A DNA stretch of 64,000 bases, from contig JAGAJO010000001.1 in assembly GCA_017626015.1 (NCBI GenBank), positions 362,721 through 426,720 of the forward strand, written 5' to 3'. Below the pieces are notes generated by a model. That model had not been told where the DNA came from and did no database searches. It was given only the letters and a program-made list of their open reading frames with translations. Of this stretch, positions 8,137 through 54,219 are shown piece by piece. Numbering within the stretch: the first letter of the stretch is position 1; each line of letters opens with the position of its first letter. The translations under genes and the position numbers were made by a program. This DNA comes from Ruminococcus sp. (GTDB lineage Bacteria; Bacillota; Clostridia; Oscillospirales; Ruminococcaceae).

Positions 8137-8294
8137 GAAAATCAATTTTCAGGATACCGAACAAAAACTTTGTATATATTTGTTGACCTTTCTCTGCCGT
8201 ACGGTGGGGAAAGGTCAACTCAGGCTTCGATACTCAGAGCAAAAGTACGATATTTTGTTATAATTAAAATGTTTGATCGTTAAAATTGATTTCC
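8137..8294 (+). repeat. Palindromic repeat family B, copy 1
   Basis: A 158-bp element bounded by the inverted pair GAAAATCAATTTT and AAAATTGATTTCC. Its centre (8182-8219) is a 38-nt hairpin in which every position still pairs if G-U is allowed. Right of the hairpin are CTCAGGCTTC and a TATAAT-containing stretch shared with the copies at 16869 and 54138. It ends 22 bp before the -35 box of the next gene. No coding capacity. Confidence 0.75.
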
Positions 8295-8315
8295 CTGTTA
8301 TGCGCTGTTTCGCAG

Positions 8316-8344
8316 TTGACAAAAAAATAAAAATGAGGTAAAAT
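8316..8344 (+). promoter_or_regulatory. Promoter of the purine nucleoside phosphorylase gene
   Basis: TTGACA (8316-8321) and TAAAAT (8339-8344), spacer 17 bp, about 40 bases before the ATG. Confidence 0.78.
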
Positions 8345-8386
8345 ATATACTGTATAATTGTATTCTCAAATGGAAGGAGACTTGAT

Positions 8387-9214
8387 ATGACAGCCTGTGA
8401 AAAGCTTGTCAGATGCTGCGAATGTATAAGAAGGTTTACTGATTTCAAGCCGAAGGTTACGCTTGTTCTCGGCTCGGGGCTGGGCGCCTTTGCGGACGAA
8501 ATAAAAGCCGAAGCAATTATAGACTACAGCGATATAGACGGCTTTCCCACATCTACCGTGGAGGGTCATAAAGGAAGGTTTGTTTTCGGATATATCGGAG
8601 CAGTCCCCGCCGTTATCATGCAGGGGAGAGTTCATTATTACGAGGGCTACGGTATAGAGGACGTGGTGCTTCCTGTAAGGCTCACTGCGATGCTTGGGTC
8701 GGAGATCCTTTTTCTCACCAATGCCTCGGGAGGTATAAATCCTGATTTTTCCGCCGGAGATTTCATGCTTATAAACGATCACATTTCAAGCTTTGCGCCC
8801 AATCCGCTGAGGGGAGAAAATATCGATATACTGGGAACAAGATTTCCGGATATGAGCGAGGTTTACAAAAAGGAACTAAGGGAGGTCATAAAAAGATCCG
8901 CCGCAGAGCTGAATATACCCCTTAAGGAGGGCGTTTATGTCCAGCTGATGGGTCCGTCCTTTGAAACTCCCGCAGAGATAAGAATGCTGAGGACTCTCGG
9001 CGCCGACGCTGTTGGAATGTCCACCGTGTGCGAAGCGATAGCCGCTAACCATGCTGGAATGAAGGTGTGCGGAATATCATGTATTGCAAACAAGGCTGCG
9101 GGCATGACTGATAATCCTCTTACTCATGCCGAGGTGCAGGAGTGTGCGGACAAAGCGGCTCCGCTGTTTAAAAAGCTGATAGAAAGATCGGTCTCGGCTA
9201 TGGGAGGACTGTAA
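8387..9214 (+). CDS. punA: Purine nucleoside phosphorylase (inosine/guanosine type)
   Basis: A 275-residue enzyme of the trimeric PNP family, which splits inosine and guanosine with phosphate into base and ribose 1-phosphate in purine salvage. LVLGSGLGAFADEI near the N-terminus is the phosphate loop; EGHKGR, HYYEGY and LTNASGGIN are family signatures; GPSFETPAE followed by LGADAVGMSTVCEA forms the purine and ribose pocket. The length is normal. GGAAGGAG precedes the ATG. It has its own promoter directly after a family B repeat. The substrate class (6-oxopurines rather than adenosine) is inferred from family membership. Confidence 0.93.
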   Translation: MTACEKLVRCCECIRRFTDFKPKVTLVLGSGLGAFADEIKAEAIIDYSDIDGFPTSTVEGHKGRFVFGYIGAVPAVIMQGRVHYYEGYGIEDVVLPVRLTAMLGSEILFLTNASGGINPDFSAGDFMLINDHISSFAPNPLRGENIDILGTRFPDMSEVYKKELREVIKRSAAELNIPLKEGVYVQLMGPSFETPAEIRMLRTLGADAVGMSTVCEAIAANHAGMKVCGISCIANKAAGMTDNPLTHAEVQECADKAAPLFKKLIERSVSAMGGL

Positions 9215-9251
9215 TTCCCCCAAGAGATCATGCGGGCGGATCGCTGTGAGG

Positions 9252-9276
9252 TTGTTGCATCAAAACGTGCAACAAT
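9252..9276. other. Inverted repeat, possible operator or weak terminator
   Basis: TTGTTGCA and TGCAACAA form a perfect 8-bp stem around an 8-nt spacer, in the gap between the PNP and fumarase genes. No T run follows, so a DNA-binding site is as likely as a terminator. Confidence 0.4.
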
Positions 9277-9425
9277 TACTGAAATGTGTCCGAATAAAAA
9301 AAATAAACTATATAACTGCGGACGGGCTGAGTATAGCGGCGTTATCCGGAAAACACCGCATAGGAAACGTCACTGATTTACGGTCCTGCCTGTAAAAAAT
9401 ATACTGTGAAAGACGGAGTATCATT

Positions 9426-10268
9426 ATGAGAGAAATAAACGTTTCGGAGGTCGAAAGCCTCGTAAGGGAGCTTTGCATAAAAGCCAACCTGTACCTCCCC
9501 GAGGATATGGAGGAGTGTATTAAATGCGGCAGGGAAAAGGAAAAGTCCCCTGTGGGAAAAAACGTGTTTGACGACATAATCGAAAATATAAGCGTTGCAA
9601 AAAAAGAGACCATACCCATTTGTCAGGATACGGGTATGGCGGTGATCTTTATGGAGATAGGTCAGGACGTGCATTTTACCGGAGGATCACTGAATGAAGC
9701 CGTAAACAGAGGAGTTGCCGCCGGATATCTTGACGGCAGACTGCGCTGTTCCATTGTTTCGGATCCGCTGGAGAGGGTAAATACCGGTGATAACACTCCC
9801 GCAGTGCTGCACCTTAAAATGACTGACGGCGAAAAGGTAAGGCTCACAGTCGCACCGAAGGGCTTCGGAAGCGAGAATATGTCCGCCCTTAAAATGATGA
9901 CGCCCTCCGTTACTCAGGACGAGATAGTGGACTGGGTGGCATCGGTGTGCGCAAAGGCAGGCTCCAATCCGTGTCCGCCTGTGGTCATAGGCGTAGGTAT
10001 AGGCGGGGATTTTGAAAAGTGCGCTTATCTTGCCAAGAAAGCTCTCTGCCGTCCCGTTTCTCAGAGAAATCCCAAGAAGCTTTACGCTGAGCTGGAGGAG
10101 CAAATGCTTGAGAAGATCAACAGGCTTGGAATAGGACCTCAGGGCTTCGGCGGAACGCAGACCTGCCTTGCGGTAAATATCGAACAGGCGCCCACTCACA
10201 TTGCGGGACTGCCTGTTTCAGTGAACGTCGGCTGTCACGTTACCCGTCACGCAAGCGGAGAAATCTAG
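9426..10268 (+). CDS. Class I fumarate hydratase / tartrate dehydratase alpha subunit
   Basis: A 280-residue protein matching the N-terminal half of oxygen-sensitive [4Fe-4S] fumarases, the enzymes that interconvert fumarate and malate. CQDTGMAV holds the first cluster ligand (Cys66), SNPCPPVVIGVGIGG carries a second cluster Cys, and GPQGFGG and CHVTRHA are conserved near the end. In two-subunit enzymes this alpha chain carries the cluster, while a beta chain of about 185 residues supplies the other half of the active site and usually follows directly. Here no beta gene follows: the stop codon runs into a palindromic element and the next gene is convergent. The C-terminus is complete, so this is not a truncated fusion. 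Confidence 0.88.
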   Translation: MREINVSEVESLVRELCIKANLYLPEDMEECIKCGREKEKSPVGKNVFDDIIENISVAKKETIPICQDTGMAVIFMEIGQDVHFTGGSLNEAVNRGVAAGYLDGRLRCSIVSDPLERVNTGDNTPAVLHLKMTDGEKVRLTVAPKGFGSENMSALKMMTPSVTQDEIVDWVASVCAKAGSNPCPPVVIGVGIGGDFEKCAYLAKKALCRPVSQRNPKKLYAELEEQMLEKINRLGIGPQGFGGTQTCLAVNIEQAPTHIAGLPVSVNVGCHVTRHASGEI

Positions 10269-10342
10269 GGTGCGTTGACACTATCCGAAATGCAGAAAAT
10301 ATGACCGCAAGACAGGCGTTGAGCGGTAGCGTCAACGCACCC
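10267..10342. repeat. Palindromic element F between convergent genes
   Basis: AGGGTGCGTTGAC (10267-10279) is perfectly inverted as GTCAACGCACCCT (10330-10342); after one mismatch the stem continues with CTATC/GGTAG. It overlaps the last two bases of the fumarase stop codon at one end and the last codons of the AGCS gene at the other. There is no clear T run, so it is more like an inserted element than a standard terminator. Confidence 0.6.
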
Positions 10343-11612
10343 TGGGCGGAAGTATCTCTTTTGAAAGAACAAGTACGCCGGTCATGTTGGGCAGAGCCAT
10401 AAGACCGTTGAAAATATCGCTTATCCCCCATACCAGCGACGGGTCGTATACCGAGCCGAAATATACGCACATTATGAATATTGCGGAGTATACAGTTCCT
10501 CCGCCGCCGAAAAGATAGCTCCATGCCTTTTCGCCTATGAAATACCAGCCTGCGACGGTTGCGAGGGCGAAAAGTATAAGGGATACGGATATGAAGGGTC
10601 TTCCTGCGGGAAGAGCCGCAGAATATCCTGTTACCGCACTGTCGGGAGTGAGCTTTACGCCGCTGATGATGATCACAAGGGCGGTGACGGTGCAGATCAC
10701 CATGGTATCTATGAATACCTCAGCCATGCCCATTATCCCCAGATCCTCCTCGGGGGAGCTTCCGCTTTTTTTGCATGACGAGTGTACAGACACGGAGGAG
10801 CCGAGACCTGCTTCGTGGGAAAACGCTCCCCGTTTTATACCTTCGATGCAGACAAAGCCTATACCTCCGCCTGCGGCTGCCTTAGGCGACATTGCGCACT
10901 GAACGATCTCCTTAAGCGCACCGGCGGCTTTAAGGGGAGATGACAGTATCACCGCAAGGCTTCCCAGCAGGAAGATCCCTGCCATGAAGGGCACGAGCCT
11001 TTCGCAAAGTTTAGCTGCGGAGCTTTTTCCGCTTACGGTAAAGGCGGTGAAGATCACAAGGATCAGAGCGGCGGCATATTTTGAAATGCCGAAGCCCTCC
11101 CTTGCGGCGGTGACGACGGAGCTTGCCTGTGCCATATTCCCCATGCCGAGGGAGGCAAGCACGGTAAAGGCTGCATACAGTACGGCAAGTATTTTCCCTC
11201 TGCCGACCCTTTCGAGATAGGACATTGCGCCGCATATACCTGTTTTTCCGGAGTATTTTACTCCCAGATAATTTTCGCAGTAGGATATGCCCATTCCGAT
11301 AGCTGCGGACACCCACATCCAGAAAACTGCGCCCTTTCCCCCTACTGCAAGGGCTGCCCCGACGCCTGTAACGGAGCCTGTTCCCACGGCTGCCGCCAGC
11401 GCTGTGGAAAAGCCCTGAAAGCATGATATGCCCTGCTTTTCATCGGCGTCCCCTTTAACGGTGCGGACGGTCCGTTTGAATATGCTTATGATACGCAGCT
11501 GTGAGAATCCTATTCTGAAGCTGAGTATTAACCCTCCCCCCAGCAGCAGGATAAGCACAGGGCAGCCCCACAGCGCTGAGCTTACTTTTTCGGTAAATTC
11601 GGTAAAATCCAT
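10332..11612 (-). CDS. Sodium:alanine/glycine symporter (AGCS family)
   Basis: A 426-residue membrane protein with about ten to eleven hydrophobic segments. ALAAAVGTGSVTGVGAAL and FWMWVSAAIGMGISY are the signature segments of AGCS carriers, which import alanine or glycine with Na+. GAFSHEAGLGSS is a second conserved family block. The ATG at 11612 has GGGAGG four bases before it; a further 12 in-frame codons upstream have no ribosome site. The last few residues (ILPPRVR) are encoded inside palindromic element F, so the extreme C-terminus may have been replaced when the element arrived. Substrate choice between alanine and glycine cannot be decided here. Confidence 0.9.
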   Translation of the reverse strand: MDFTEFTEKVSSALWGCPVLILLLGGGLILSFRIGFSQLRIISIFKRTVRTVKGDADEKQGISCFQGFSTALAAAVGTGSVTGVGAALAVGGKGAVFWMWVSAAIGMGISYCENYLGVKYSGKTGICGAMSYLERVGRGKILAVLYAAFTVLASLGMGNMAQASSVVTAAREGFGISKYAAALILVIFTAFTVSGKSSAAKLCERLVPFMAGIFLLGSLAVILSSPLKAAGALKEIVQCAMSPKAAAGGGIGFVCIEGIKRGAFSHEAGLGSSVSVHSSCKKSGSSPEEDLGIMGMAEVFIDTMVICTVTALVIIISGVKLTPDSAVTGYSAALPAGRPFISVSLILFALATVAGWYFIGEKAWSYLFGGGGTVYSAIFIMCVYFGSVYDPSLVWGISDIFNGLMALPNMTGVLVLSKEILPPRVR

Positions 11613-11630
11613 TGATCCTCCCCGCCTTTT

Positions 11631-11656
11631 CTGAGAACCTGTCTTCACATCGTTCT
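11631..11656. repeat. Short remnant of palindromic family E
   Basis: AGAACCTGTCTTCA (11634-11647) matches the right end (reverse complement) of the 111-bp element at 36951-37061, and the inverted GTTCT follows after a few bases. It looks like an internally deleted copy, just upstream of the AGCS start and downstream of no coding sequence. Confidence 0.45.
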
Positions 11657-11759
11657 CTCAGTTATAATGATATGTGGGGGCAGGACAAATAATGACCGCA
11701 GCGGCTGCTTTTTCAGCCGGGGCATTTCTTTACAGATCAGAAGTATACGGAGTTTGATA

Positions 11760-12212
11760 ATGAAACAGTACAAACCGTCAAAAAAGCCGCTTATTCTCAT
11801 TTACGGAATATTGCTGCTGATACTAATACTAATCAAATATGCGATAAATCTTGTGAGCCGCTTTCTGCCGTTTGCGGATTATTATATTCTGTTCCCTGTA
11901 TGGATAATCGCTGCGCTTGCGGCTGTTCTGGTGCTGCCCTTTTACTTTCACAAGGCTTATTTCACTGTCTCGTCCAAGGAGATCACCGTCAAGGGAGGGC
12001 TTATAATAACAAGCAGGCACTTTATGCTTACCGAATCGGTGAAATCGGTCACTGCCGTTACGACGCCGCTGGGTTCGCTGACGGGGCTTAATTTTGTTAT
12101 TCTCAACGCCCTCGGATCAAGGATAGTGCTGCCGTTTCTTTCGGCTAAGGATGCGGCAGAGGTCACGGCGTATATAAACAATTCCATACGAAGCAGGGGC
12201 AGACAGAGGTAG
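11760..12212 (+). CDS. PH domain membrane protein, YdbS-like
   Basis: A 150-residue protein with two N-terminal membrane spans (LILIYGILLLILILI and YYILFPVWIIAALAAVLVLPFYF) followed by a bacterial PH domain (bPH2), seen as AYFTVSSKEITVKGGLIITSRHFMLTESVKSV with the repeated strands of that fold. This is the architecture of YdbS, which in Bacillus is paired with YdbT. Their role is not settled; protection against some antimicrobial compounds has been reported for the Bacillus pair. The ATG at 11760 has CGGAG upstream and removes a non-conserved leader. The YdbT-like gene begins 4 bp after the stop, so the two are one unit. Confidence 0.78.
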   Translation: MKQYKPSKKPLILIYGILLLILILIKYAINLVSRFLPFADYYILFPVWIIAALAAVLVLPFYFHKAYFTVSSKEITVKGGLIITSRHFMLTESVKSVTAVTTPLGSLTGLNFVILNALGSRIVLPFLSAKDAAEVTAYINNSIRSRGRQR

Positions 12213-12216
12213 AGCT

Positions 12217-13728
12217 ATGACGAGATCGCAGAAAATAATAAAAAAGGGCGGCATGATAAAGAGCTTTTTTGGCCGCCGTCAGCACCCTGTAATAATTTTG
12301 TCGTATATTGCTAAATACCTGTGGCTGCTGCTTATCCCCCTTGCAAAATATCTTATTGCTACAAAGTTTAATTTTCAGAGCTGGATAAGGGCAAACTGGG
12401 TGGATATACTTACCCTTTCGGTGATAATAGGCTACGGATTTTTAAGGTGGGTATTTATTTATTTCGAGATCGAGGAGGACGGTATCGTTGCGCATACGGG
12501 ATATTTCGGCGTTGCCAAGACAAAGGTCTGCTTCAGCGAGATGTCCTCGATGTCACTTTGTCAGGGGTATTTTTTCCGTGCGGTGAGAGCCTGCTCGCTT
12601 TACATTGATACCGACGCAAAATCTATTCAGGAATCGGACATAAAGCTTGATCTGACTCAGAAGCAGGCGTTTAAAATATATGAGCTTGCTACTGCCAGAT
12701 GCAGGAACAAGCCAAAATATATTTTCAATTCGAGAAAGAAAAGCCTTGTTGTGTTTTCGCTTCTTTTTTCATCTACGCTGTCGGGGTGCATACTTGCGCT
12801 GACTTTTATATACGAGGCGTATAAAATAGTGGGCGGGGATGCCGAGGCGCAGTTTATAGAGCGTGTCAACAGCGAGCTTGACAAGCTTACGCTGTTTATT
12901 CCCAAATATCTTTTTGCTGTCGCCGCAGTGGTTGCGGGGGGGTGGCTCATATCCTTTACGGCGAACCTTATGCGTCACTGGAACTTTTCCTGCACAAGAT
13001 GCGCCGATATGCTTATAATCAAAAGCGGCAAGGGAACGAAGAGCCGTCACGTCATCATGCGTGACAGGATAAACTACATCGACTATCAGCAGTCGCTGCT
13101 TATGAAGATCTTCAATATCTGCTCGGTTTCCGTACAGTGTACGGGCTACGGGAAAAGGCGGCTGGAGATCTCCGCACTGATACCGATAACGACCAACAGC
13201 CAGGCGGAGACATCTATAAAAATGCTTATGCCGGGAGTTCCCTCGGCGAGGTACGATATACGGACGGGCAGCCGCAGCATAGGAAGGTTCATTGTTTTAC
13301 CCCTTGTTTTGTGCATTGCGCCGTGGGTGGGGTATCATGCGCTTTCACGGATCATACCGAGACTTGATTTTGTTGTTTCGGCGTTTCCCGACTGGCAGAG
13401 CGATCTGCGGAATCTGGCGTTTATAGCCGTTGTGCCGGCAGTGTGGCTGCTGATCGTCAAGATATGCGCAGCTTTTACGACGTCGGTGGGCTTTGACAGG
13501 GAACACTGCACGCTGTGCTACAGCAGATTTTACAGGTTTCACCGCACGGTGGTGAATCTTGACAGGATAAGCAGGATCACCGTTACCCAGAACCCTTTGC
13601 AGCAGATAGGGGGGACCTGCAATCTGCTGATATATACAAATTCCGAGAAGGTAAGCCGTCATAAGATAAAAGGACTGGATTACAGACGTCTGACGGGACT
13701 TCTTAAGCAAAACGGATATCCGTTTTAG
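12217..13728 (+). CDS. PH domain membrane protein, YdbT-like
   Basis: A 503-residue membrane protein with several bPH2 domains separated by pairs of membrane spans: spans near 25-75, a PH domain (EIEEDGIVAHTGYFGVAKTK), spans near 170-255, a second PH domain (CADMLIIKSGKGTKSRHVI), spans near 350-420 and a third PH domain (DREHCTLCYSRFYRFHRTVV). This repeated layout is that of YdbT. It directly follows the YdbS-like gene, and the pair probably forms one membrane complex. AGAGGTAGAG precedes the ATG. Element A copy 2 begins at the base after its TAG stop. Confidence 0.78.
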   Translation: MTRSQKIIKKGGMIKSFFGRRQHPVIILSYIAKYLWLLLIPLAKYLIATKFNFQSWIRANWVDILTLSVIIGYGFLRWVFIYFEIEEDGIVAHTGYFGVAKTKVCFSEMSSMSLCQGYFFRAVRACSLYIDTDAKSIQESDIKLDLTQKQAFKIYELATARCRNKPKYIFNSRKKSLVVFSLLFSSTLSGCILALTFIYEAYKIVGGDAEAQFIERVNSELDKLTLFIPKYLFAVAAVVAGGWLISFTANLMRHWNFSCTRCADMLIIKSGKGTKSRHVIMRDRINYIDYQQSLLMKIFNICSVSVQCTGYGKRRLEISALIPITTNSQAETSIKMLMPGVPSARYDIRTGSRSIGRFIVLPLVLCIAPWVGYHALSRIIPRLDFVVSAFPDWQSDLRNLAFIAVVPAVWLLIVKICAAFTTSVGFDREHCTLCYSRFYRFHRTVVNLDRISRITVTQNPLQQIGGTCNLLIYTNSEKVSRHKIKGLDYRRLTGLLKQNGYPF

Positions 13729-13827
13729 GGAAGTGCTGATCAATGTATCTCTCCCCGCCGAAAGCTGGGAAAGATACACCTAGATACGTTATCTTTTAAA
13801 ACAGCAATGCGATCGGTGTTGCCTTAA
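13729..13827. repeat. Palindromic repeat family A, copy 2
   Basis: A 99-bp element that starts at the base after the YdbT stop codon. GGAAGTGCTGATCAATGTAT matches copy 1 at 5803, and TTTTAAAACAGC...GATCGGTGTTGCC is its inverted end. The middle (two small hairpins) differs from copy 1. It sits just before the cheA ribosome site. Confidence 0.62.
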
Positions 13828-13858
13828 TTATCGCTGAATGTGCAAGGGAGGATTTAAA

Positions 13859-15892
13859 ATGTCAAAATTTGAAGCCGGTATGGAATCGATGCTGGATACC
13901 TTTGTGTTTGAAACGGGCGGACTCCTGGAGGCGCTTGACGAGATACTCATGCGCACCGAACAGGAGGAGCAGATAGAGACCGATGATATCAACGAGATCT
14001 TCCGTACCATGCACACAATAAAAGGCTCCGCCGCAATGATGGGGCTTCAGAATATGTCTCAGCTTGCGCATTCGGTGGAGGATCTGTTTTACATCATCAG
14101 AGAGGAAAAAAACGTAAGCTTTGACAAGGCGGCGCTTTACGAGCTGCTTTTTACAAGCTCCGACTGTCTTAAGACAGAGCTGGATAATTTATCCGACGAT
14201 GACATACCTCTTACGGATTTCAGCGGGCTTATGGATAAGATCCGTGCTATGGCGGCTCAGATGAAGGGCGGCGGTGATGACGGGAAGGCTGTCAAGGGCA
14301 GCGGAGGGTCGCTTCCCGATGGACTTTTCGCAGAGGACGAGCCTGAGGATATGCATACCTACAGGGTCATTTATGCCGAAAGCTGCGCAATGCCTTCCGC
14401 AAGGGCAATGGTAATGCTGAGAAAGCTGGGCAGAGTGGCGGAGGTGTGCCGCACTGTTCCGGAGGATATGGAGGCGGACGACGCCGACGATGTGATAAAG
14501 GCTTCGGGTCTTTACATAAAGCTTATCACCGACAGCCCCGCTGCGGCGGCTGAGATAATACGCACGGGAATAAACGTTGAAGGTCTGGAGGAGGTAAAGA
14601 AGGAGGAAAAATCCGTCCGGCAGGCGGAGCCGCAGAAGGCTGACGCTTTGCAGCAGAGTGCGGCGGTGCAGGAGAACAGACCGGCAAAAAAGACTGCCGA
14701 AAAGCATGAGCAGAGCATGATATCGGTAAAGCTGGAAAAGCTGGACAGACTGCTGGATCTGGTCTCGGAGATAGTAATTACCGAAAGCTCGGTCACAGCG
14801 TCTCCCGATCTGAGGGGCATATCGAAAAATCTTGACCGTTTCAACAAATCCTCGAGAGATCTGAAAAAGCTCACCGACGAGCTTCAGGACGTGGTAATGT
14901 CCATACGCATGGTGCCTGTTTCCACGGCGTTCCAGAAAATGAATCGTGTTGTGCGGGATATGAACAGCAAGCTGAAAAAGAACGTTACGCTGGTTTTCAA
15001 GGGGCAGGAGACAGAGGTGGACAAATCCATTATCGACATTCTGGGAGATCCGCTTATGCATATCGTGAGAAACGCAGTGGATCACGGCATAGAGGATCCC
15101 GCTGAAAGGCAGAGGCAGGGAAAGACCGAGCCGCCCACCGTTACGCTCAGCGCAGGCTACGATTCAAACGAGGTGGTGATATCCTGCACGGACAACGGCG
15201 CAGGAATGGATTCCGCAAGGATCCTGGCTAAAGCCAAGAAAAACGGTCTGCTTACCAAGCCGGAAAGCGAATATACCGAAAAGGAGATATTCAGCTTTGT
15301 TATTGCCGCAGGCTTTTCCACCAATGAAAAGGTAACAGAATACAGCGGCAGGGGCGTTGGAATGGACGTTGTAAAAAAGAACATAGAAAAGGTCGGCGGA
15401 AAGCTTACGGTGGATTCGGTTTTCGGAAAAGGCTCGACCTTTACAATAAGGATACCGCTGTCGCTGTCCATAGTGGACGTTCTCAGCCTGAGAGTGGGAG
15501 ACAGCAGTCTTTCAATACCAGCATCGTCGGTGAGAGAGGCTTTTTCCTGCAAACAGGGGGATCACATAAAGGATCCCGACGGAAACGAATTTGTATATCA
15601 CAGGGGGCGCTGTCTGCCGCTTATAAGGCTTGGCAGCGCATTGGAGATACCTGACGGAGAAACGGACATTGAGAAGGGCATATGCATTTACTGCCGTGAG
15701 GGCTACAGCGAGGCTGCGATATTTGCGGACTATATCATCTGCGATCAGCAGGTGGTGGTAAAGCCGTTTTCTCCTCTGCTCAATCATCTTAAGCTCAAGG
15801 AGGCGGGACTTGTAGGCTGCTCGATCCTCGGAGACGGCAGCATTACGCTGATACTTGACGCAAAACAGATCATGACGGAGGAGGGTATGTAA
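13859..15892 (+). CDS. cheA: Chemotaxis histidine kinase CheA
   Basis: A 677-residue CheA. Domains in order: HPt phosphotransfer domain (1-105) with the phosphorylated His52 in MHTIKGSAAMMG; a P2-like response-regulator binding domain (about 162-245); P3 dimerisation helices (from about 287); the ATP-binding domain with HIVRNAVDHGIEDP near 400; and a CheW-like receptor-coupling domain from about 539. The kinase passes phosphate to CheY to steer motility, or acts in an alternative output pathway. GGGAGG lies seven bases before the chosen ATG, seven codons inside the longest frame. CheW overlaps its end by one base. No CheY, CheB, CheR, receptor or flagellar gene is in the window. Confidence 0.95.
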   Translation: MSKFEAGMESMLDTFVFETGGLLEALDEILMRTEQEEQIETDDINEIFRTMHTIKGSAAMMGLQNMSQLAHSVEDLFYIIREEKNVSFDKAALYELLFTSSDCLKTELDNLSDDDIPLTDFSGLMDKIRAMAAQMKGGGDDGKAVKGSGGSLPDGLFAEDEPEDMHTYRVIYAESCAMPSARAMVMLRKLGRVAEVCRTVPEDMEADDADDVIKASGLYIKLITDSPAAAAEIIRTGINVEGLEEVKKEEKSVRQAEPQKADALQQSAAVQENRPAKKTAEKHEQSMISVKLEKLDRLLDLVSEIVITESSVTASPDLRGISKNLDRFNKSSRDLKKLTDELQDVVMSIRMVPVSTAFQKMNRVVRDMNSKLKKNVTLVFKGQETEVDKSIIDILGDPLMHIVRNAVDHGIEDPAERQRQGKTEPPTVTLSAGYDSNEVVISCTDNGAGMDSARILAKAKKNGLLTKPESEYTEKEIFSFVIAAGFSTNEKVTEYSGRGVGMDVVKKNIEKVGGKLTVDSVFGKGSTFTIRIPLSLSIVDVLSLRVGDSSLSIPASSVREAFSCKQGDHIKDPDGNEFVYHRGRCLPLIRLGSALEIPDGETDIEKGICIYCREGYSEAAIFADYIICDQQVVVKPFSPLLNHLKLKEAGLVGCSILGDGSITLILDAKQIMTEEGM

Positions 15893-16323: not shown

Positions 16324-16389
16324 TCGGGTGACTTTAAGAGAGCATAACGGATCTGATCCGGCTGCGCAGTATGATGCGGGTGAAAAGCT

Positions 16390-16833: not shown

Positions 16834-16868
16834 AGCATCGGGAAGCTTTTTCTTTAAAACAGGAACAC

Positions 16869-17005
16869 GGAAATCAATTTTTAAAACGACTGACAAAAGT
16901 TTTGTAAGTGTTTGTTGTCTTTTCCCCGCCGTACGGCGGGGAAAAGACAACTCAGGCTTCTGTACTCCGGACAAATAAAATATTTGATATTTAAAATTGA
17001 TTTCC
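16869..17005 (+). repeat. Palindromic repeat family B, copy 2
   Basis: A 137-bp element with ends GGAAATCAATTTTTAAA and TTTAAAATTGATTTCC. Its centre (16914-16951) is a perfect 38-bp palindrome with the GC core CCCCGCCG/CGGCGGGG. CTCAGGCTTCTGTACTCCGG follows as in the other copies, but about 20 bp of the right arm are missing. It ends 22 bp before the -35 box of the glyS promoter. Confidence 0.78.
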
Positions 17006-17027
17006 ATGAAAACAGAAAATTCACCTC

Positions 17028-17056
17028 TTGACATATCGGAGGAATTGTTATACAAT
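17028..17056 (+). promoter_or_regulatory. glyS promoter
   Basis: TTGACA (17028-17033) and TACAAT (17051-17056), spacer 17 bp. Only about 30 bases separate it from the start codon, so there is no room for a T-box leader. Confidence 0.8.
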
Positions 17057-23990: not shown

Positions 23991-23991
23991 C

Positions 23992-45872: not shown

Positions 45873-45910
45873 AGGCGGTACCCGTTCAACCAACCCCACT
45901 CAGAAAAGCA

Positions 45911-46026: not shown

Positions 46027-46072
46027 AGACCTCCTCGGAAACTTCTGAAGTGACGGATTCCGCAGGAGGTCT
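46027..46072. repeat. Palindromic element C, short copy
   Basis: A 46-bp form bounded by AGACCTCCT and AGGAGGTCT. The inner GGAAACTTCTGAAGTGACGGATTCCGCAGGA matches one arm of the 163-bp copy at 29664-29826 read from its right end. It lies 17 bases beyond the AraC gene's stop codon. Confidence 0.6.
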
Positions 46073-46089
46073 AATCTGTAGGCTAAAAA

Positions 46090-47013: not shown

Positions 47014-47202
47014 CTCCCTTACATTAATATAATAACACGATCGCCGAAAAAAATCTTGATATGAATTTCAAAGTTTTTTCGTCTCAATAAGGTGGCGGTC
47101 ATAATCAGCCCGAAACTATAATAACCGAAATATCATCATAATAATTCTGCTCTGACAAAGTGCACTCTTTATCAATTTAGCAAAGCCTATGGCGTCCCAC
47201 CT

Positions 47203-47239
47203 ATCAAAGAAAGAGCCCGGCTTTCATACAGCCAGGCTC
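47203..47239 (-). terminator. Terminator of the SGNH lipoprotein gene
   Basis: GAGCCCGGCT (47213-47222) pairs with AGCCAGGCTC (47230-47239) with one mismatch; the minus-strand transcript then reads TTTCTTTGAT. Confidence 0.72.
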
Positions 47240-47257
47240 CATTTGCTCAAATCTTTA

Positions 47258-47353
47258 CATTCCAAGGCAGTAACTGAGAAACCTCGCAGCCGGATAAAGC
47301 CTACACTTTTACAGTTGACTTTTTTCGGCTGCGGTTTTGCCTGAAATGTAAAA
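47258..47353. repeat. Palindromic element G
   Basis: A roughly 96-bp imperfect palindrome: TTTACATTCCAAGGC at the left is inverted as GCCTGAAATGTAAA at the right, with GCAGCCG/CGGCTGC nested inside. It lies between the stop codon of the SGNH gene and that gene's terminator. In the rest of the 361-bp gap (47014-47374) I see only AT-rich sequence where the AraC promoter should be, with no clear -35/-10 pair. Confidence 0.5.
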
Positions 47354-47374
47354 ATTCTATGAATATATAAGAGG

Positions 47375-48631
47375 CTATTCAGTGTACCCGAAGCCGAGTA
47401 TCGCAGCGTATGTTTCCTCATCGCCTTCTGCCATGGAAATTTCCACATGATATTTGGTGGTGGAGGGCATCATAGCAATATTCTGCACCTGAGCGTTTCC
47501 CCAGCCGCTTGGACTTAGCACCTCATAGTCGCACTCGTCGTAATCCTCTCCGTCGGCTGTCACTTTTACATGGAGCTTGCCGTAATTTCCGGTTTTGGCT
47601 TCCTTGTATATCATGTAAAGGAAGCTGGCGTCCATTTCAAATACTATAGGTTCGTTTCCTGCATCGGGGGAGTGATGCCAGCCCTTATCGAAGCTTGCAA
47701 CGTCCGTACCTTCCGTCCAGCTGCCAAGACTTATGGGAGTGATACCGTCATTTTCCACCATATGGGCGTTTACTTCTCTGGGGGAGTAGACGTTTTCAGG
47801 GGGCAGAATATAGTCGCCCATAGGCTCCTGATCCATAACGGTGTCAAAGTAGTAGTTGATCATAGACGCTACCAGCTTGTGTCCCTCTTTATTTGGATGC
47901 GACTGGTCGTCGGAAAACTCTTCCCATGTAAGCCTGTTGTTTTCAAAAAGGTATCTCAGCGCATCGCAGTAGGATATCATAGGGAGGTTATAAGCCGCAC
48001 CGATCTCCTTCATATAATCCTGAGCGGAGTAGTCCTCAGCGGTAACGGAGAACAGCAGCACGACGGCAATATTCTTTTTCAGCAGCGTCTGCACGATTGA
48101 TTCATAGGCGTTCTGGTGATCCGGGTCGTTGCCGTCGTTTACAGCAAATTCTATAAACACCACATCGGGGTCTGAGGAAAGAACGTCTCTGTCAAGGCGG
48201 AGTATTCCCAGCTTTGAGGGTGTTCCGCTCAGACCTGCGTTGCAGAATTTTACGTTGTCTCCGGTGCCGAAGGTCTCGGCAAAGTGATCATAGGAAAGCT
48301 TTGCATAGCAGTCGTCCGGACCTGCGGAAATTCCCTCGGTAATAGAGCCGCCCAGATACGCAAGAGTTACCTCCTCCCCGGACTGCGCTTTTTTTATAAC
48401 GTTTTGCATCATAGAGGTATTTCCGTAGGAGACCATTGCTTTTTTCAGCATTGCATCGTTCCATTCCTCGTCTGTTTCTGGGATCTTTTCAGGCTCGGAG
48501 GAGCTTTCCGCTGATGATACGGCAGAGGCTCCTGACTCTGAGCTGTCCTTGTCCGATCCGTCTGAGCAGCCTGCAAGGGAGGCAAGCATTGTACATACAA
48601 GTATGGCTGCAAGCATTTTTTTTATGTTCAT
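47375..48631 (-). CDS. SGNH/GDSL hydrolase lipoprotein
   Basis: A 418-residue lipoprotein: signal peptide with lipobox SLAGC (Cys22), a Ser/Glu-rich linker to about residue 50, then an SGNH hydrolase. Block I is YLGGSITEG with nucleophile Ser96; GLSGT and FAVND give the oxyanion-hole Gly and Asn; DQSHPN supplies Asp242 and His245. The C-terminal 130 residues look like a separate beta-sandwich. Such enzymes are mostly carbohydrate esterases (acetylxylan or similar) in gut bacteria; the exact ester is unknown. AAAGGAAA precedes the ATG. It is a single-gene unit. Confidence 0.85.
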   Translation of the reverse strand: MNIKKMLAAILVCTMLASLAGCSDGSDKDSSESGASAVSSAESSSEPEKIPETDEEWNDAMLKKAMVSYGNTSMMQNVIKKAQSGEEVTLAYLGGSITEGISAGPDDCYAKLSYDHFAETFGTGDNVKFCNAGLSGTPSKLGILRLDRDVLSSDPDVVFIEFAVNDGNDPDHQNAYESIVQTLLKKNIAVVLLFSVTAEDYSAQDYMKEIGAAYNLPMISYCDALRYLFENNRLTWEEFSDDQSHPNKEGHKLVASMINYYFDTVMDQEPMGDYILPPENVYSPREVNAHMVENDGITPISLGSWTEGTDVASFDKGWHHSPDAGNEPIVFEMDASFLYMIYKEAKTGNYGKLHVKVTADGEDYDECDYEVLSPSGWGNAQVQNIAMMPSTTKYHVEISMAEGDEETYAAILGFGYTE

Positions 48632-48679
48632 TAGTATTTTCCTTTCTGCACGAAAACGGTTTCAGTTTCTTTAAAATAC

Positions 48680-48710
48680 AAAAAGTACGGCGTAAACCGT
48701 ACTTTTTGAT
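48680..48710. terminator. Bidirectional-looking terminator after msmX
   Basis: AAAAAGTACGG and CCGTACTTTTT form a near-perfect hairpin at 48680-48708. The minus-strand transcript ends in TTTTTGTATTTT past the msmX stop at 48729. Confidence 0.88.
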
Positions 48711-48728
48711 TTATGAAATGTCTGATTA

Positions 48729-49871
48729 TCAGTTGACAACGGATTTCTCTGTTTCCTTGTCGAAGATGTGGATCCTGTTAGGATCGAGAGCAACCTGGAT
48801 ATCGTCCTGAGGACGAGCTGTGGATCTGGGTGAAACCCTTGCTGTGAGCGGAATACCCTCGCATGTAAGATACAGATATGTTTCAGCACCCATCATTTCA
48901 GTTACTTCAACAGTCGCATTGATAACGCCAGTCTTAGCAGCGGAGATGAACATTTCCTCATCGTGGATGCACTCAGGACGAACACCGAGAACAACTTCCT
49001 GATCTACCAGCGGCTCAAGAGCCTCGGGATCAGCCTTTGCTTCGGGAACTTCTACCTGATACTTAACGCCTCTGGAGGTCTTTGTATCCTCAGAACCAAA
49101 TTCAACAACGTATTTGCCGTCGATCTTGAGCAGCTTAGCGTCGATGAAGTTCATCTGAGGAGATCCGATGAATCCTGCAACGAACTGGTTAACAGGGTTC
49201 TGATAAAGGTTTGTAGGAGTATCGATCTGCTGGATGTAGCCGTCCTTCATAACAACGATACGGTCGCCCATCGTCATAGCTTCTGTCTGGTCATGGGTTA
49301 CATAGATGAATGTTGTACCCAGCTTCTTATGGAGCTTGGAGATCTCGGTTCTCATCTGTGCTCTCAGCTTAGCGTCGAGGTTTGACAGAGGCTCGTCGAG
49401 GAGGAATACCTGAGGCTCACGTACGATAGCTCTTCCCAGAGCAACACGCTGTCTCTGACCGCCGGAGAGAGCCTTCGGCTTTCTGTCGAGAAGGTGAGCG
49501 ATGTCGAGGATCCTTGCAGCTTCCTCAACCTTTCTTGCGATCTCGTCCTTGGGGACCTTTCTCAGCTTAAGACCGAATGCCATATTCTCAAATACAGTCA
49601 TATGAGGATACAGAGCGTAGTTCTGGAATACCATTGCGATATCTCTGTCCTTAGGAGCAATGTCGTTAACAAGTCTGTCTCCGATATAAAGCTCGCCTTC
49701 GCTGATCTCCTCAAGTCCCGCGATCATTCTCAGGGTCGTGGACTTTCCGCATCCGGAAGGACCAACGAGGATAATGAATTCCTTATCCTTGATCTCGATG
49801 TTGAAGTCTGAAACGGCGATTACGCCGCCGGCATACTTCTTATAAATTTCTCTTAATGATACACTTGCCAT
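48729..49871 (-). CDS. msmX: Sugar ABC transporter ATPase (MsmX/UgpC type)
   Basis: A 380-residue ATPase that powers carbohydrate ABC importers. Walker A is GPSGCGKS (37-44), followed by the Q-loop [12 protein letters not shown], signature LSGGQRQR and Walker [17 protein letters not shown]. The C-terminal 140 residues form the regulatory OB-fold domain of the MalK/UgpC group. No permease or binding-protein gene is adjacent, which fits the shared ATPase described for MsmX in Bacillus and streptococci that serves several importers. GGGAGG lies nine bases before the ATG. It has its own promoter and terminator. Confidence 0.95.
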
Positions 49872-49940
49872 TAAAAAGAACCTCCCTATTGAAATTTTCT
49901 AATATTACTAATATATAATATCCACATTAGCTACAATAAT

Positions 49941-49969
49941 ATAATAGCAAATTTTTAAACAACCCGCAA
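49941..49969 (-). promoter_or_regulatory. msmX promoter
   Basis: TTGCGG (49969-49964) and TATTAT (49946-49941) on the minus strand, spacer 17 bp. Confidence 0.7.
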
Positions 49970-50047
49970 GAGTTTTTTTTACTAAACTTTCCTATATCTA
50001 CTTATGTATAATGACGAAAAATCACAAATTGATGACATATATTTACA

Positions 50048-50785
50048 TTAAAACGATTTGCGTGTCAATAAACTTTCAACATCTTTGTGCATAATTTCCA
50101 AACACTCTCCGGGAGCAAGATCTTCGTCGAGGGGGAGATCTCCTATAGCGGTACGTCTTAGAAATATCACTTTGTTGCCCAGTTCTCCAAACATTCTTTT
50201 GACCTGATGAAATTTTCCCTCGTGCAGCACAAGCGTACATTCGCAGGGATCCTCCGCTGAGCCGGTGAACTCGGCGGGCAGACATTTTTCTTTTCCGTTG
50301 TCGCCGCTTATGGTCATTCCCTCCGCCATTATCCGCTTATAGCCTTCCTGCCACGGCTTTTCAAGTCGGACAAAATAGGTCTTGGGGACATGGCTTTTAG
50401 GGGACAGCATACTGTGTGAAAGCTCTCCGTCGTCGGTGAGAAGCACAAAGCCCTCGGTGTCCTTGTCAAGTCTGCCTGCGGGGAAAAGACCGCTCCGCAT
50501 AAGCTCCGGCGGAACAAGCTCCAGAACCGTTCTTGACTGTCCGTCCTTAGTGGAGCATACGAATCCCTGCGGCTTGTTGAGCATTATATAAATGTATTTT
50601 TTATAGACGATCCTTTTGCCGTCCGCATAGATCTCGTCGTCGGTATCGACCTTAATATCGGAGCGGGCGATAAGTCTGCCGTTAACCGATATTTTCTTTT
50701 TCAGGCAGAGCTTTTTTACATCTGCACGTGATACGCCGTAAAGCTGCGACGCAACCAGCCTGTCAAGACGCATTTTTTCGCCCAT
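50048..50785 (-). CDS. rsuA: RsuA-family 16S rRNA pseudouridine synthase
   Basis: A 245-residue enzyme with an N-terminal S4 RNA-binding domain (MRLDRLVASQLYGVSRADVKKL) and a catalytic domain; GRLDKDTEGFVLLTDDG carries the catalytic Asp of the RsuA/RluB family, and LNKPQGFVCSTKD precedes it. It isomerises one uridine in rRNA, most likely U516 of 16S. GGAGG in the end of the MATE gene lies eight bases before its ATG, and the gap is only 3 bp, so the pair is one unit. Confidence 0.93.
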   Translation of the reverse strand: MGEKMRLDRLVASQLYGVSRADVKKLCLKKKISVNGRLIARSDIKVDTDDEIYADGKRIVYKKYIYIMLNKPQGFVCSTKDGQSRTVLELVPPELMRSGLFPAGRLDKDTEGFVLLTDDGELSHSMLSPKSHVPKTYFVRLEKPWQEGYKRIMAEGMTISGDNGKEKCLPAEFTGSAEDPCECTLVLHEGKFHQVKRMFGELGNKVIFLRRTAIGDLPLDEDLAPGECLEIMHKDVESLLTRKSF

Positions 50786-50788
50786 AGT

Positions 50789-52147
50789 TCAGTCCTCCAT
50801 AACGTCGATCTGATTCCTTTTGACCTTTGAGAAGCTTATATAGCCTATAAGCACCGAGAAAAACTCCGCAATAAGGAATGACCACCAGACGTAACCGAGT
50901 CCGCCTATCTTTGAGAGAATGAACGCCGCCGGCAGAAGCACCACGAGCTGTCTTGTAAAGGACATTATCATAGCGTAAATGCCGTGCCCCAGCGCCTGGA
51001 GCGAGGAAGAAAGGATAATTCCGAATGCAGCCACCATAAAATGCAGGCTTATTATCCTCAGCGCAGGTATGCCGATCTTCAGCATTTTGTCGCTTGCTTC
51101 AAAAAATCCCAGAAGCTGTGCAGGGAAAAGCTGCATGATGACTGTTCCGAGCATCATTATGGAAACGGCATAAATAAAAGCGTATTTCATTGTTGCTAGA
51201 ATGCGGCTTTTCTTTTTGGCGCCGAAGTTGTATGCCATTATCGGTATAAGACCGTTGTTGAGTCCGAAAACGGGCATGAATATAAAGCTCTGGAGCTTGA
51301 AGTACACACCGAATACTGCAACGGCTGTTTTTGAAAAGCCTATAAGTATTTTATTGAAGCCGAAGGTCATGACAGAGCCTATGGACTGCATTATAATAGA
51401 AGGAAGTCCCACGGCGTATATCTTTTTTATGATGGATATTTTAGGACTATATTGCTTTGGGTTTATCGTTATTTCACCGTTGTATCTGACGTTCAGGAAG
51501 AGCCCCAGCAAGGCTGCGGAAAACTGTCCTATCACCGTTGCTACGGCAGCGCCGGTAACGCCCATTTTCGGGAAAAAGCCCAGTCCGAAGATAAAGCAGG
51601 GATCGAGGATTATGTTGATTATTGCTCCGAGGCCCTGGGTGTACATTGACAATACAGTCTTTCCGGTGGCCTGCAAAAGCTTTTCAAAGGTCATCTGCGA
51701 AAAAAGTCCAAGACCGAAAACGGTTATTACCGACATATACTGTCTGCCGTATTCTATGATCGCTGCGTCCTTTGTCTGAGCACGGTAGAAAATGCCGGTA
51801 AAGAAGATACCGAACAGCAAAAACAGCAGAAACGACGGTATTATCAGAAAGATCCCGTTGTTTGCAGCTTCGTTGGCACGCTTGAAATTCTTTTCTCCAA
51901 GGGACCTGGAGAGCAGAGCATTGATTCCCACTCCGGTTCCCGCACCTATGGCGATCATGAGGTTCTGGACCGGGAAAGCCAGGGAAACCGCCGTCAGGGC
52001 GTCCTCGCTTATTTTCGCTACGAAAATACTGTCTACAATATTATACAGAGCCTGTACCAGCATGGAGATCATTATAGGCAGCGACATAGAGATCAGCAGC
52101 TTGCTTATCGGCTGAGTACCCATTTTGTTTTCTTTGATACTATCCAT
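50789..52147 (-). CDS. MATE family efflux transporter
   Basis: A 452-residue membrane protein with twelve spans in two similar halves, the MATE layout. The first half holds MGTQPISKLLISMSLPIMISMLVQALYNIVDSIFVAKIS with the typical P-x-x-x-x-x-x-x-x-x-Y-N-x-x-D motif. Transporters of this family export drugs or metabolites in exchange for Na+ or H+; the substrate is not predictable. AAGGAAG precedes the ATG. The pseudouridine synthase follows directly. Upstream, a weak TATAAT is present at about 52190 on the minus strand without a good -35 box. Confidence 0.93.
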   Translation of the reverse strand: MDSIKENKMGTQPISKLLISMSLPIMISMLVQALYNIVDSIFVAKISEDALTAVSLAFPVQNLMIAIGAGTGVGINALLSRSLGEKNFKRANEAANNGIFLIIPSFLLFLLFGIFFTGIFYRAQTKDAAIIEYGRQYMSVITVFGLGLFSQMTFEKLLQATGKTVLSMYTQGLGAIINIILDPCFIFGLGFFPKMGVTGAAVATVIGQFSAALLGLFLNVRYNGEITINPKQYSPKISIIKKIYAVGLPSIIMQSIGSVMTFGFNKILIGFSKTAVAVFGVYFKLQSFIFMPVFGLNNGLIPIMAYNFGAKKKSRILATMKYAFIYAVSIMMLGTVIMQLFPAQLLGFFEASDKMLKIGIPALRIISLHFMVAAFGIILSSSLQALGHGIYAMIMSFTRQLVVLLPAAFILSKIGGLGYVWWSFLIAEFFSVLIGYISFSKVKRNQIDVMED

Positions 52148-52345
52148 TTTTTATACTTCCTTGCTATAAGATTAACCACTTAATTATAGCATATAGTTAC
52201 AAAAAATGTGTTGAAATTTTGTGAACGGTGACGAAATCAGGGCCTGTGCGTAATGTCGGAACGATACATGAAAAGCGTAAACCGGATATAGATGAACGGC
52301 AAAATCCTTATAGGCGCTCACCTGCGGGAAGATATGCCAAAACTG

Positions 52346-52374
52346 TTGACTTGACGGATAAAAAGTGATATAAT
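52346..52374 (+). promoter_or_regulatory. Promoter of the Fe-S assembly operon
   Basis: TTGACT (52346-52351) and TATAAT (52369-52374), spacer 17 bp. The leader of about 110 bases contains a hairpin GCATAATA...TATTATGC (about 52405-52443). The remaining 52148-52345 stretch is AT-rich and shows no gene. Confidence 0.78.
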
Positions 52375-52489
52375 ACAATAATAGTATATTTTACAGCGTT
52401 TAACGCATAATAATACGAACGTATAAAATACCGGCGTATTATGCTGAAAATATATAATATTATAAAAATTACAGACGGGAATGAAAAAA

Positions 52490-53203
52490 ATGCTCAGACT
52501 GGAAAATATAAAATGGAGCCTGGAGGACGGGCGGAGGATATTAAACGATATCTCGCTGGAGATACCCGAGGGAAAGCTCGTGGTTGTAACAGGTCCAAAC
52601 GGCGGGGGAAAAACGACTCTTGCCAAGGTAGTTGCGGGACTTGTCAAGCCGGACGGCGGCAGGATAATTTTTGACGGAGAGGACATTACGGAGCTTGATA
52701 TCACCGAAAGAGCGAAAAAAGGTATAAGCTATGCCTTTCAGCAGCCGGTAAGGTTCAAGGGACTTACCGTCAGGGATCTTCTTGAGCTGGCGGCGGGCGG
52801 CAGCGTCAGGGAAAGCGACGTTTGCTCGCTTCTGGGCAAGGTAGGGCTTTGCACCCACGACTACATCGACAGAGAGGTAAATGCATCCCTTTCCGGAGGA
52901 GAGATAAAGCGTATCGAGATAGCCACCGTTCTGGCAAGGAACACAAAGCTGTCTCTTTTCGACGAGCCGGAGGCAGGTATAGATCTGTGGAGCTTTTCGG
53001 GGCTGGTGGATGTTTTCAAGGAAATGAAGGAAAAAATAAACGGTACGTTGATGATAATTTCACATCAGGAAAGAATACTTGAGATCGCAGACGAGATCGT
53101 GGTCGTTGCCGACGGAGCAGTGAGGACCAGAGGCGCCGCCGAAGATGTTCTCCCGCAGCTTCTGGCAGGAGAGATCACAAGAAACTGCGGAAGGAGATGC
53201 TGA
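52490..53203 (+). CDS. sufC: SufC-like Fe-S cluster assembly ATPase
   Basis: A 237-residue ABC-type ATPase. Walker A is GPNGGGKT (35-42), the signature is LSGGEIKRIEIATVLARN, and Walker B with its following turn reads LSLFDEPEAGID. SufC hydrolyses ATP to open the SufB/D scaffold during Fe-S cluster assembly. The ATG at 52490 is preferred because its spacing to GGGA is better than for the ATG three codons before. The two-gene layout with a single SufB/D-like partner and no SufS, SufU or SufE fits the reduced SMS (SmsC-SmsB) type described for archaea and clostridia; that subtype is an inference. Confidence 0.88.
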   Translation: MLRLENIKWSLEDGRRILNDISLEIPEGKLVVVTGPNGGGKTTLAKVVAGLVKPDGGRIIFDGEDITELDITERAKKGISYAFQQPVRFKGLTVRDLLELAAGGSVRESDVCSLLGKVGLCTHDYIDREVNASLSGGEIKRIEIATVLARNTKLSLFDEPEAGIDLWSFSGLVDVFKEMKEKINGTLMIISHQERILEIADEIVVVADGAVRTRGAAEDVLPQLLAGEITRNCGRRC

Positions 53204-53205
53204 GC

Positions 53206-54126
53206 ATGAACAGTGTGACAGAAGAGCTGCTGAAGATAATTTCCGATTACGACGGAGAAGGCTTCAAGGGCGCATACAATATCCGCGAGGACGGTCAGTG
53301 CGCAGGAAGAATGTCCTCCGAAAACATAAAGATCGAATCCAAGCAGGACGCTCCCGGGCTGGTCATTACGATCAAGCCGCATACTGTGGGCGAGAGGGTG
53401 TTTATCCCTGCCTGCGTAACGCACAGCGGTGTGGACGATCTTGTTTACAACGATTTCTATGTAGGCGAGGGCGCAGACGTTACGATAGTGGCGGGCTGCG
53501 GAGTTCACAATACCGGCGAGGAGGAAGCAAGGCACAACGGTATTCACAGATTTTTTATTGAAGAGGGTGCAAGCGTTGTTTACGAGGAAAAGCACATAGG
53601 CACGGGCGAAAGCAGCGGTCCACGCAAGATCGATCCCGTGACGGATGTCACTCTTGCGGATAACGCTAAGCTGACAATGGATACTGTACAGCTGGGAGGA
53701 GTGGACTTTACCTCAAGGGTCACAAGAGGTGTTCTTGGTAAAAATGCCAGACTGATAATCCGTGAGAGGCTTATGACCGACGGAACGGAGCAGGCAAAGA
53801 CCGATTTCGAGGTGGTTTTAAAGGGCGAGGACAGCGGCGTTGATCTTATGTCCCGTTCGGTGGCAAAGGGAAATTCCTATCAGGAGTACCGCTCGGTCAT
53901 AAAGGGTGAAAACCGCTGCACCGGACATTCCGAATGCGATGCGATACTTGTGGGAAACGGCAAGGTGTCGGCAGCTCCCGAGCTGGTGGCTTCACACTGC
54001 GACGCCGCTCTTATTCATGAGGCTGCGATCGGAAAGATCGCAGGAGAGCAGATACTGAAGCTCAGAACCCTCGGACTTACGGAGGAGGAAGCTGAGCAGA
54101 AGATCATTTCGGGATTTTTGAAATGA
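53206..54126 (+). CDS. SufB/SufD-like Fe-S scaffold protein (short form)
   Basis: A 306-residue protein of the SufBD fold. From about residue 85 a repeated beta-helix is seen (DVTIVAGCGVHNTGEEEARHNG, then GASVVYEEKHIG), and the C-terminal block SRSVAKGNSYQEYRSVIKGENRCTGHSECDAILVG is the conserved core, ending in EAAIGKIAGEQILKLRTLGLTEEEAEQKIISGF, the SufC-binding helices. It is about 100-150 residues shorter than SufB because the N-terminal region is absent. Cys at HSECDA and HC near 54000 could be cluster ligands. The AAGGAG site lies in the end of sufC, and the start is 2 bp after its stop, so the two are coupled. Confidence 0.88.
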   Translation: MNSVTEELLKIISDYDGEGFKGAYNIREDGQCAGRMSSENIKIESKQDAPGLVITIKPHTVGERVFIPACVTHSGVDDLVYNDFYVGEGADVTIVAGCGVHNTGEEEARHNGIHRFFIEEGASVVYEEKHIGTGESSGPRKIDPVTDVTLADNAKLTMDTVQLGGVDFTSRVTRGVLGKNARLIIRERLMTDGTEQAKTDFEVVLKGEDSGVDLMSRSVAKGNSYQEYRSVIKGENRCTGHSECDAILVGNGKVSAAPELVASHCDAALIHEAAIGKIAGEQILKLRTLGLTEEEAEQKIISGFLK

Positions 54127-54137
54127 CCGCTTTTTAA

Positions 54138-54219
54138 GGGACAACTAGGGCTTCTGTATTCCGGACAAGGTACGATGCTTTGCTATAATCAAAATGTTTT
54201 ACAGATAAAATTGATTTCC
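54138..54219 (+). repeat. Palindromic repeat family B, partial copy 3
   Basis: An 82-bp right half of family B: GACAACTAGGGCTTCTGTATTCCGGAC, a TATAAT-containing stretch nearly identical to copy 1, and the end AAAATTGATTTCC. The left arm and most of the hairpin are missing. It lies 12 bases past the SufB-like stop and 21 bp before the -35 box of the next promoter, in the same orientation as copies 1 and 2. Confidence 0.7.

Follow-up and report, generated by a model that had tools for sequence, protein, structure and literature searches.

Palindromic repeats precede promoters in a 64,000-nucleotide stretch of Ruminococcus sp. DNA (assembly GCA_017626015.1, contig JAGAJO010000001.1, positions 362,721 to 426,720; hereafter the window). 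These repeats are miniature inverted-repeat transposable elements (MITEs). Very likely they, and insertion sequences (ISs) with the same ends in relatives, were placed by an ISAs1-type transposase that aims at promoters and turns the right end of the element toward a sigma-A promoter already present. The MITE and the IS are ordinary kinds of element; what is unusual, and very precise, is their choice of target, which can be understood without assigning the repeats a function as RNA. At the level of sequence, the argument draws on the repeat family, its ends and target duplications, its fixed distance and orientation, a glyS promoter found in congeners without the element, and ends and placement shared with the IS.

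The family is spread through the 2.42-Mb genome that contains the window. With a covariance model built from 19 copies, 150 of the 1197 first-look candidates were scored and 50 matches reached E <= 0.01; because the palindrome matches on the opposite strand as well, these were counted as 36 distinct places, 2 of them doubtful. BLAST of the same genome returned 38 rows, of which a few are two pieces of a single copy and one is the palindrome matching itself. The 19 aligned copies are 131–164 bp long, without room for a transposase gene, and their consensus consists, in order, of a 16-bp terminal inverted repeat (TIR), CACGGAAATCAATTTT, a palindrome around the core CCCCGCCGTACGGCGGGG, a promoter-like stretch that points outward and contains TATAAT, and finally the complementary TIR, which forms the right-hand end AAAATTGATTTCCGTG. 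TIR-like sites within the window number 5, against 0.86 expected. An element bounded by CACGG and CCGTG is flanked by a 9-bp target duplication (a length of 7 bp was considered and superseded), whose two sides agree at all 9 bases in 5 of 26 MITEs and at 7 or more in 15 of 26, compared with 15 of 1482 control pairs drawn between loci. Bacterial MITEs, such as MITEAba12, are short, TIR-bounded and non-coding, with duplicated targets. The present family differs from them in its fixed, oriented placement relative to promoters and in a palindrome core common to three congeneric species. As to the two doubtful places, one (C1:36133) has an E value of 0.0097, and the other (C4:48132) contains the palindrome without clear inverted repeats. 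At about 670–710 of L239 (G000:C4:48184), the core CCCCGCCGTACGGCGGGG lies inside a longer perfect palindrome that lacks clear MITE inverted repeats.

A sequence-only reading of the window had reported three copies, each before a promoter and all in the direction of the gene. All three are present (Table 1). Its ends fell 3 bp short, however, so that the distance to the -35 hexamer is 18, 19 and 18 bp for copies 1, 2 and 3 rather than the 21–22 bp it gave. In copy 2 the duplication is imperfect and slipped by 1 bp, in keeping with the offset of 19 for this copy. The internal TATAAT that it ascribed to copies 1 and 3 is common to both. Downstream lie the genes that it had named for purine nucleoside phosphorylase (copy 1) and glycine–tRNA ligase (copy 2); the third, taken for the start of a lipoprotein operon, encodes a protein without an NCBIfam match at E <= 0.001.

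The one-directional position before promoters holds genome-wide. Our scan used author-set weights on the sigma-A consensus with a score of at least 6, and the counts exclude ends with more than 5 TIR mismatches or less than 60 nt of flank (L005 and L033 have no right end). The best promoter places its -35 hexamer at an offset of 16–20 bp in 27 of 33 MITE right ends, and exactly at 18, with a 17-bp spacer, in 19; the figure for left ends is 5 of 28. In mononucleotide-shuffled right flanks the fraction is 0.069 for MITEs and 0.073 for the ISs described below, giving binomial values of 3e-26 and 9e-23, respectively. A further copy, L238, whose right end has 3 mismatches and a promoter at 18, was found later and stands outside the 33. 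At glyS, 12 of 25 congener loci have a counterpart of the promoter TTGACA-17-TACAAT, about as far from the start codon (a stricter pattern, since replaced, gave 6 of 25); no promoter of this form was found near glyS in the remaining 13, and no TIR lies within 160 bp upstream of glyS in any of the 25.

Such a distribution might also be left by survivorship, if insertion were random and only elements upstream of promoters persisted. Consistent with this, a same-strand open reading frame (ORF) of at least 90 aa, called mechanically, begins 30–400 bp past 30 of the 33 MITE right ends. But purifying selection would not be expected to set a distance to within ~1 bp or to impose a single orientation. 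Moreover, an outward ORF of at least 90 aa is also found at 20 of 28 left ends, which nevertheless show no fixed promoter offset, so gene proximity alone cannot account for the placement. We consider survivorship very unlikely.

Promoter-aiming transposition, by contrast, has a candidate agent in relatives. Of 119 genomes from the same family, 7 contain the exact TIR, the present one included, and none contains the reversed pattern used as a control. In one of the 7 genomes (G071), a 1230-bp IS with both TIRs exact (L068:2-1231) encodes a 384-aa ORF that matches the ISAs1 model NF033564 at 287 bits (cut-off 70); in Pfam, at E <= 0.001, this transposase (P0001) has no matches other than PF01609 and PF13808. 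Relatives of the IS were found at 42 loci in public genomes, mostly metagenome-assembled genomes of Ruminococcus and other Clostridia, besides a single contig from a Treponema bin and 4 distant proteobacterial loci. Of the 42, 27 form the IS set, the other 15 being the 4 distant outgroups and 11 that had no usable right end or were not followed further. A promoter lies at 16–20 bp from 23 of the 27 IS right ends, 20 of them exactly at 18, and from none of 13 left ends; the 9-bp duplication is perfect in 7 of 13 ISs and has at least 7 matching bases in 8. On the Ruminococcus albus 7 plasmid pRUMAL01, a 1230-bp IS with ends complementary at 18 of 18 positions is flanked by the perfect duplication gtaaatgta and has TTGACA at 18. 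In the transposase tree, the 13 members of the Clostridia branch cluster together on a long branch, with support of 100/100 in the group table and 99/98 on the fork; the program cautions that the long branches of this group and of the IS4-like pair discussed below meet. The predicted structure of the transposase has Tn5 transposase as its best match in the Protein Data Bank (E 1.2e-4, TM 0.43, mean pLDDT 71.6), which suggests, at modest confidence, a Tn5-like fold only.

The IS also bears on the idea that the elements act through RNA. The sequence-only reading held that they are not only relics of mobile DNA, because the base changes in the central hairpin of copy 1 all yield G-U pairs in plus-strand RNA; on this account a regulatory hairpin is the selected form, and selection keeps oriented elements before promoters. 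Several of its observations are borne out. The palindrome of copy 2 is indeed perfect, and the 19 pairs of copy 1 include one compensated pair and three G-U pairs, with no further mismatch. When the 19 copies are aligned, both sides have changed in 7 of 18 pairs and in 12 cells, a level reached in 0 of 500 shuffles (slid registers gave 2–3 pairs), so the palindrome is maintained. (An earlier count that included the out-of-register indel copies L005 and L007 was redone on this alignment.) In the congeneric genomes G003 and G020, too, the outer stems differ but remain complementary around the identical core CCCCGCCGTACGGCGGGG, which also speaks for this reading.

Four points argue against the RNA account. 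First, G-U and A-C combinations are about equally frequent across the 19 copies (13 versus 11 cells, p = 0.84; 8 versus 7 distinct events), and hence there is no sign that plus-strand RNA is the selected form. Across the genome, where the sequence-only reading had proposed to look, the elements are oriented and their pairing is kept, but the G-U bias of copy 1 does not extend to the family and was probably a chance draw. Second, the hairpin lies upstream of both the target promoter and the weak internal -10, and would thus be transcribed from neither. Third, the palindrome core is present in 0 of 5 ISs checked that have the same ends. Because these core-less ISs show the same oriented placement at 18 bp, position and orientation would reflect target choice by the transposase rather than recruitment of an RNA regulator. 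Fourth, no terminator-like signal (a G+C-rich stem followed by a T run) was found at 8100–8420, copy 1 being the only copy scanned, and RNase P RNA is the only match in the window to Rfam at the gathering threshold. A regulatory RNA therefore seems unlikely. The elements are copies of a mobile element whose palindrome shows no strand preference, and for the hairpin itself DNA-level causes, such as a cruciform or single-strand role in transposition or correction by template switching, would fit better.

A different transposase with the same target preference could also have moved the MITEs. The TnGBS and ISLre2 elements are reported to insert 15–17 bp (peak 16) upstream of the -35 hexamer in a fixed orientation (PMC3942029, Guerillot et al. 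2014). The same paper states that some ISKra4 elements target promoters too and terms promoter targeting an unusual property for prokaryotic transposases; all these elements belong to the Mutator superfamily. The likeness of ISLre2/TnGBS (p-MULT 3) to the elements here is close: both lie at a fixed short distance with the right end toward a sigma-A promoter, and both have 8–9-bp duplications and a terminal C (PMC3942029). They differ in that the former use a Mutator-type transposase at 15–17 bp, whereas the IS with exactly these ends encodes a DDE_Tnp_1 transposase of the ISAs1 family and the mode here is 18; by its features the present family does not belong to ISLre2/TnGBS. Three models covering UPF0236, IS256/Mutator and ISLre2 (PF06782, PF00872 and NF033529) had no match in the MITE-bearing genome, an absence that is weak for PF06782 and NF033529, which matched no control genome either. 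A search for PF06782 across 61 genomes gave 1 match, just above the cut-off, and the 490-aa ORF at that locus is, we presume from inspection by eye, ISL3-like. That an ISLre2/TnGBS-type transposase was the mover seems extremely unlikely.

A number of observations nonetheless count against placement by a promoter-aiming ISAs1-type transposase. All promoters are consensus predictions, none of them mapped. Six of the 33 MITE right ends (L010, L012, L015, L021, L022 and L027) and four of the 27 IS right ends (L103, L106, L107 and L120) lack a top promoter at 16–20 bp; L107 does so despite a perfect duplication, and L103 although it belongs to the group of 13 transposases in the tree. The 5 left ends with a promoter at this distance are themselves slightly more than expected (binomial p = 0.04), and in 11 of 26 MITEs the in-register agreement of the duplication stays below 7 of 9 bases. 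The search for an ISAs1 transposase gave 0 matches in the MITE-bearing genome itself, where the same search matched in 3 of 14 control genomes; the MITEs there thus look orphaned, and their mover is deduced from the identical ends in relatives. Finally, a large survey places ISAs1 among the families over-represented between convergent genes (PMC9208149), so that ISAs1 as a whole does not prefer promoters.

This last point raises the question of whether promoter placement belongs to the whole ISAs1 family. Fifteen ISAs1 loci were tried, one insertion each, and ends were found in 10, namely R. albus and 9 outgroups. Of the 9 outgroups, 8 begin CAGGG and carry 10-bp duplications, and none has its top promoter-like site at 16–20 bp (in L189 the runner-up site is at 19). 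The contrast is suggestive only, as the outgroups include two pairs of near-identical ISs and some high-G+C hosts. Of 18 further loci tried at the level of the class, ends were found in 5 rows, two of which are one insertion and one of which (L133) looks like a chance pair; L130–L132, the three best Clostridia ISAs1 outgroups, gave none. The Clostridia branch resembles the rest of the family in its transposase, its IS length of ~1.2 kb, its single ORF and its ends starting CA, and differs from the outgroups in its CACGGAAATCAATTTT-type ends, 9-bp duplications and promoter placement. From these sequences, the placement looks like a property of the Clostridia branch rather than of ISAs1 at large. 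In G244, from another family of the same class, an ISAs1-like IS (L208:1315-2509) has CACGGAAATCAAT ends, a transposase in two frames, the 9-bp duplication attgccccc and TTGATA at offset 18, which widens the range of the Clostridia branch.

A second, distant group shows a similar pattern. In two Clostridia genomes (G287 and G353; L198–L207), an IS of ~1612 bp, with one copy of 1750 bp, has ends CAGAAGTTTAGCACTT and a DDE_Tnp_1 transposase that falls under every NCBIfam cut-off (best IS4_1, 49 of 115 bits). The top promoter lies 17–18 bp from the right end in 7 of 10 copies and from the left end in 1 of 10 (2 of 10 at 16–20), although chance promoter-like sites would be commoner in these genomes because both look A+T-rich. 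Perfect 8- or 9-bp duplications flank 10 of 10 copies. Among plasmids, a search for this group retrieved 5 weak records, none of which is a named example. We lean slightly toward a broader proposal: promoter-directed, oriented transposition would have arisen within DDE_Tnp_1 (the IS4 superfamily) at least once and perhaps twice, once at offset 18 in the Clostridia branch of ISAs1 and perhaps again at offset 17 in this distant, unassigned IS4-like group, independently of the Mutator-superfamily ISLre2, TnGBS and ISKra4; docking on promoter-bound RNA polymerase or on -35 DNA would be probable, and the MITE palindrome core may be functional.

Mechanistically, the target that the ISAs1 transposase would choose for elements with ends CACGGAAATCAATTTT...AAAATTGATTTCCGTG is a 9-bp stretch spanning 18 to 10 bp ahead of the -35 hexamer, so that upon insertion the right end faces an existing sigma-A promoter, and an enzyme of this kind probably mobilised the MITEs of the present genome. 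The fixed offset suggests that the site is found through the -35 DNA or through promoter-bound RNA polymerase/sigma-A. Promoter geometry would put the duplicated 9 bp at the site bound by the C-terminal domain of the alpha subunit. Orientation could arise if the two ends were recognised unequally, and the host may be spared, since the gene retains its core promoter. The central palindrome would be kept by selection or by template-switch correction, in either case without strand preference.

Related MITEs occur in other genomes. When copy 1 was compared as DNA with 60 relatives, a single weak, hairpin-only match turned up outside its own genome. That the element is private to the species was ruled out when the exact TIR pattern and the palindrome core retrieved relatives with other interiors. 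The core search was positive in 3 of 29 genomes of the genus; the congeners G003 and G020 have MITEs with the core CCCCGCCGTACGGCGGGG and different, again complementary, outer stem letters at 17 loci, 9 with an intact right end, of which 7 have a promoter at 18–19. In G033, G162 and G141, short elements with the same TIRs have other interiors, for which RNAfold predicts long stems (12 stretches folded without a shuffle control, one of which, L073, is not a single element). Another 47 TIR ends, almost exclusively from other genera and unsorted as to left and right, include 30 with a promoter at 17–19.

Seven G003 copies (L266, L268, L269, L270, L273, L274 and L276) have the left end and palindrome and then stop at or close to one shared internal position, following AGAAACA or AGAAACAAG, sometimes running into apparent coding sequence. 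In G141, L072:998-3182 holds a 162-bp MITE and two frames, named by eye as a TetR-like regulator and a 405-residue frame, between outer inverted repeats with near-matching flanks that have a one-base slip; it resembles a composite transposon with the same ends.

The best-ranked papers of the open literature, including IS4 (PMC2266710) and Paracoccus (PMC3281130) papers, yielded nothing on insertion directed to promoters, whether by ISAs1 or by Ruminococcus MITEs; the check did not extend to subscription papers, preprints or ISfinder notes. Promoter aiming that is precise almost to the base pair, documented by many natural insertions and found in another transposase superfamily, would provide a comparative system in which docking on RNA polymerase/sigma could be set against reading of the -35 DNA. 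In organisms where few promoters have been mapped, every insertion would flag a likely sigma-A promoter at a distance of 18 bp, and the element might serve as a tool for inserting DNA upstream of genes in a set orientation.

Table 1. MITE copies, target duplications and predicted promoters in the window
Feature	Position	Strand	Basis or detail
Target-site duplication ttatgcgct, copy 1, left	8125–8133	+	Identical to 8298–8306
MITE copy 1, 164 bp, full length	8134–8297	+	TIRs 8134–8149 and 8282–8297; BLAST family; covariance model 185 bits (copy 1 is among the sequences that built the model)
Central 38-nt palindrome, copy 1	8182–8219	+	One compensated pair, three G-U pairs
Target-site duplication, copy 1, right	8298–8306	+	Identical to 8125–8133
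Predicted target promoter, purine nucleoside phosphorylase gene	8316–8344	+	TTGACA 8316–8321, 17 bp, TAAAAT 8339–8344; offset 18; consensus scan
MITE copy 2, 143 bp, internal deletion between palindrome and right end	16866–17008	+	TIRs 16866–16881 and 16993–17008; alignment
Perfect 38-nt palindrome, copy 2	16914–16951	+	
Predicted target promoter, glyS	17028–17056	+	TTGACA 17028–17033, 17 bp, TACAAT 17051–17056; offset 19
MITE copy 3, right-hand fragment, without left TIR and hairpin	about 54138–54222	+	Exact right TIR 54207–54222; BLAST
Predicted target promoter 3' of copy 3 (L034)	54241–54269	+	TTGCAA 54241–54246, 17 bp, TATAAT 54264–54269; offset 18

Apart from these elements, the window contains, at 475–819, the gene for RNase P RNA of bacterial class A (253 bits).

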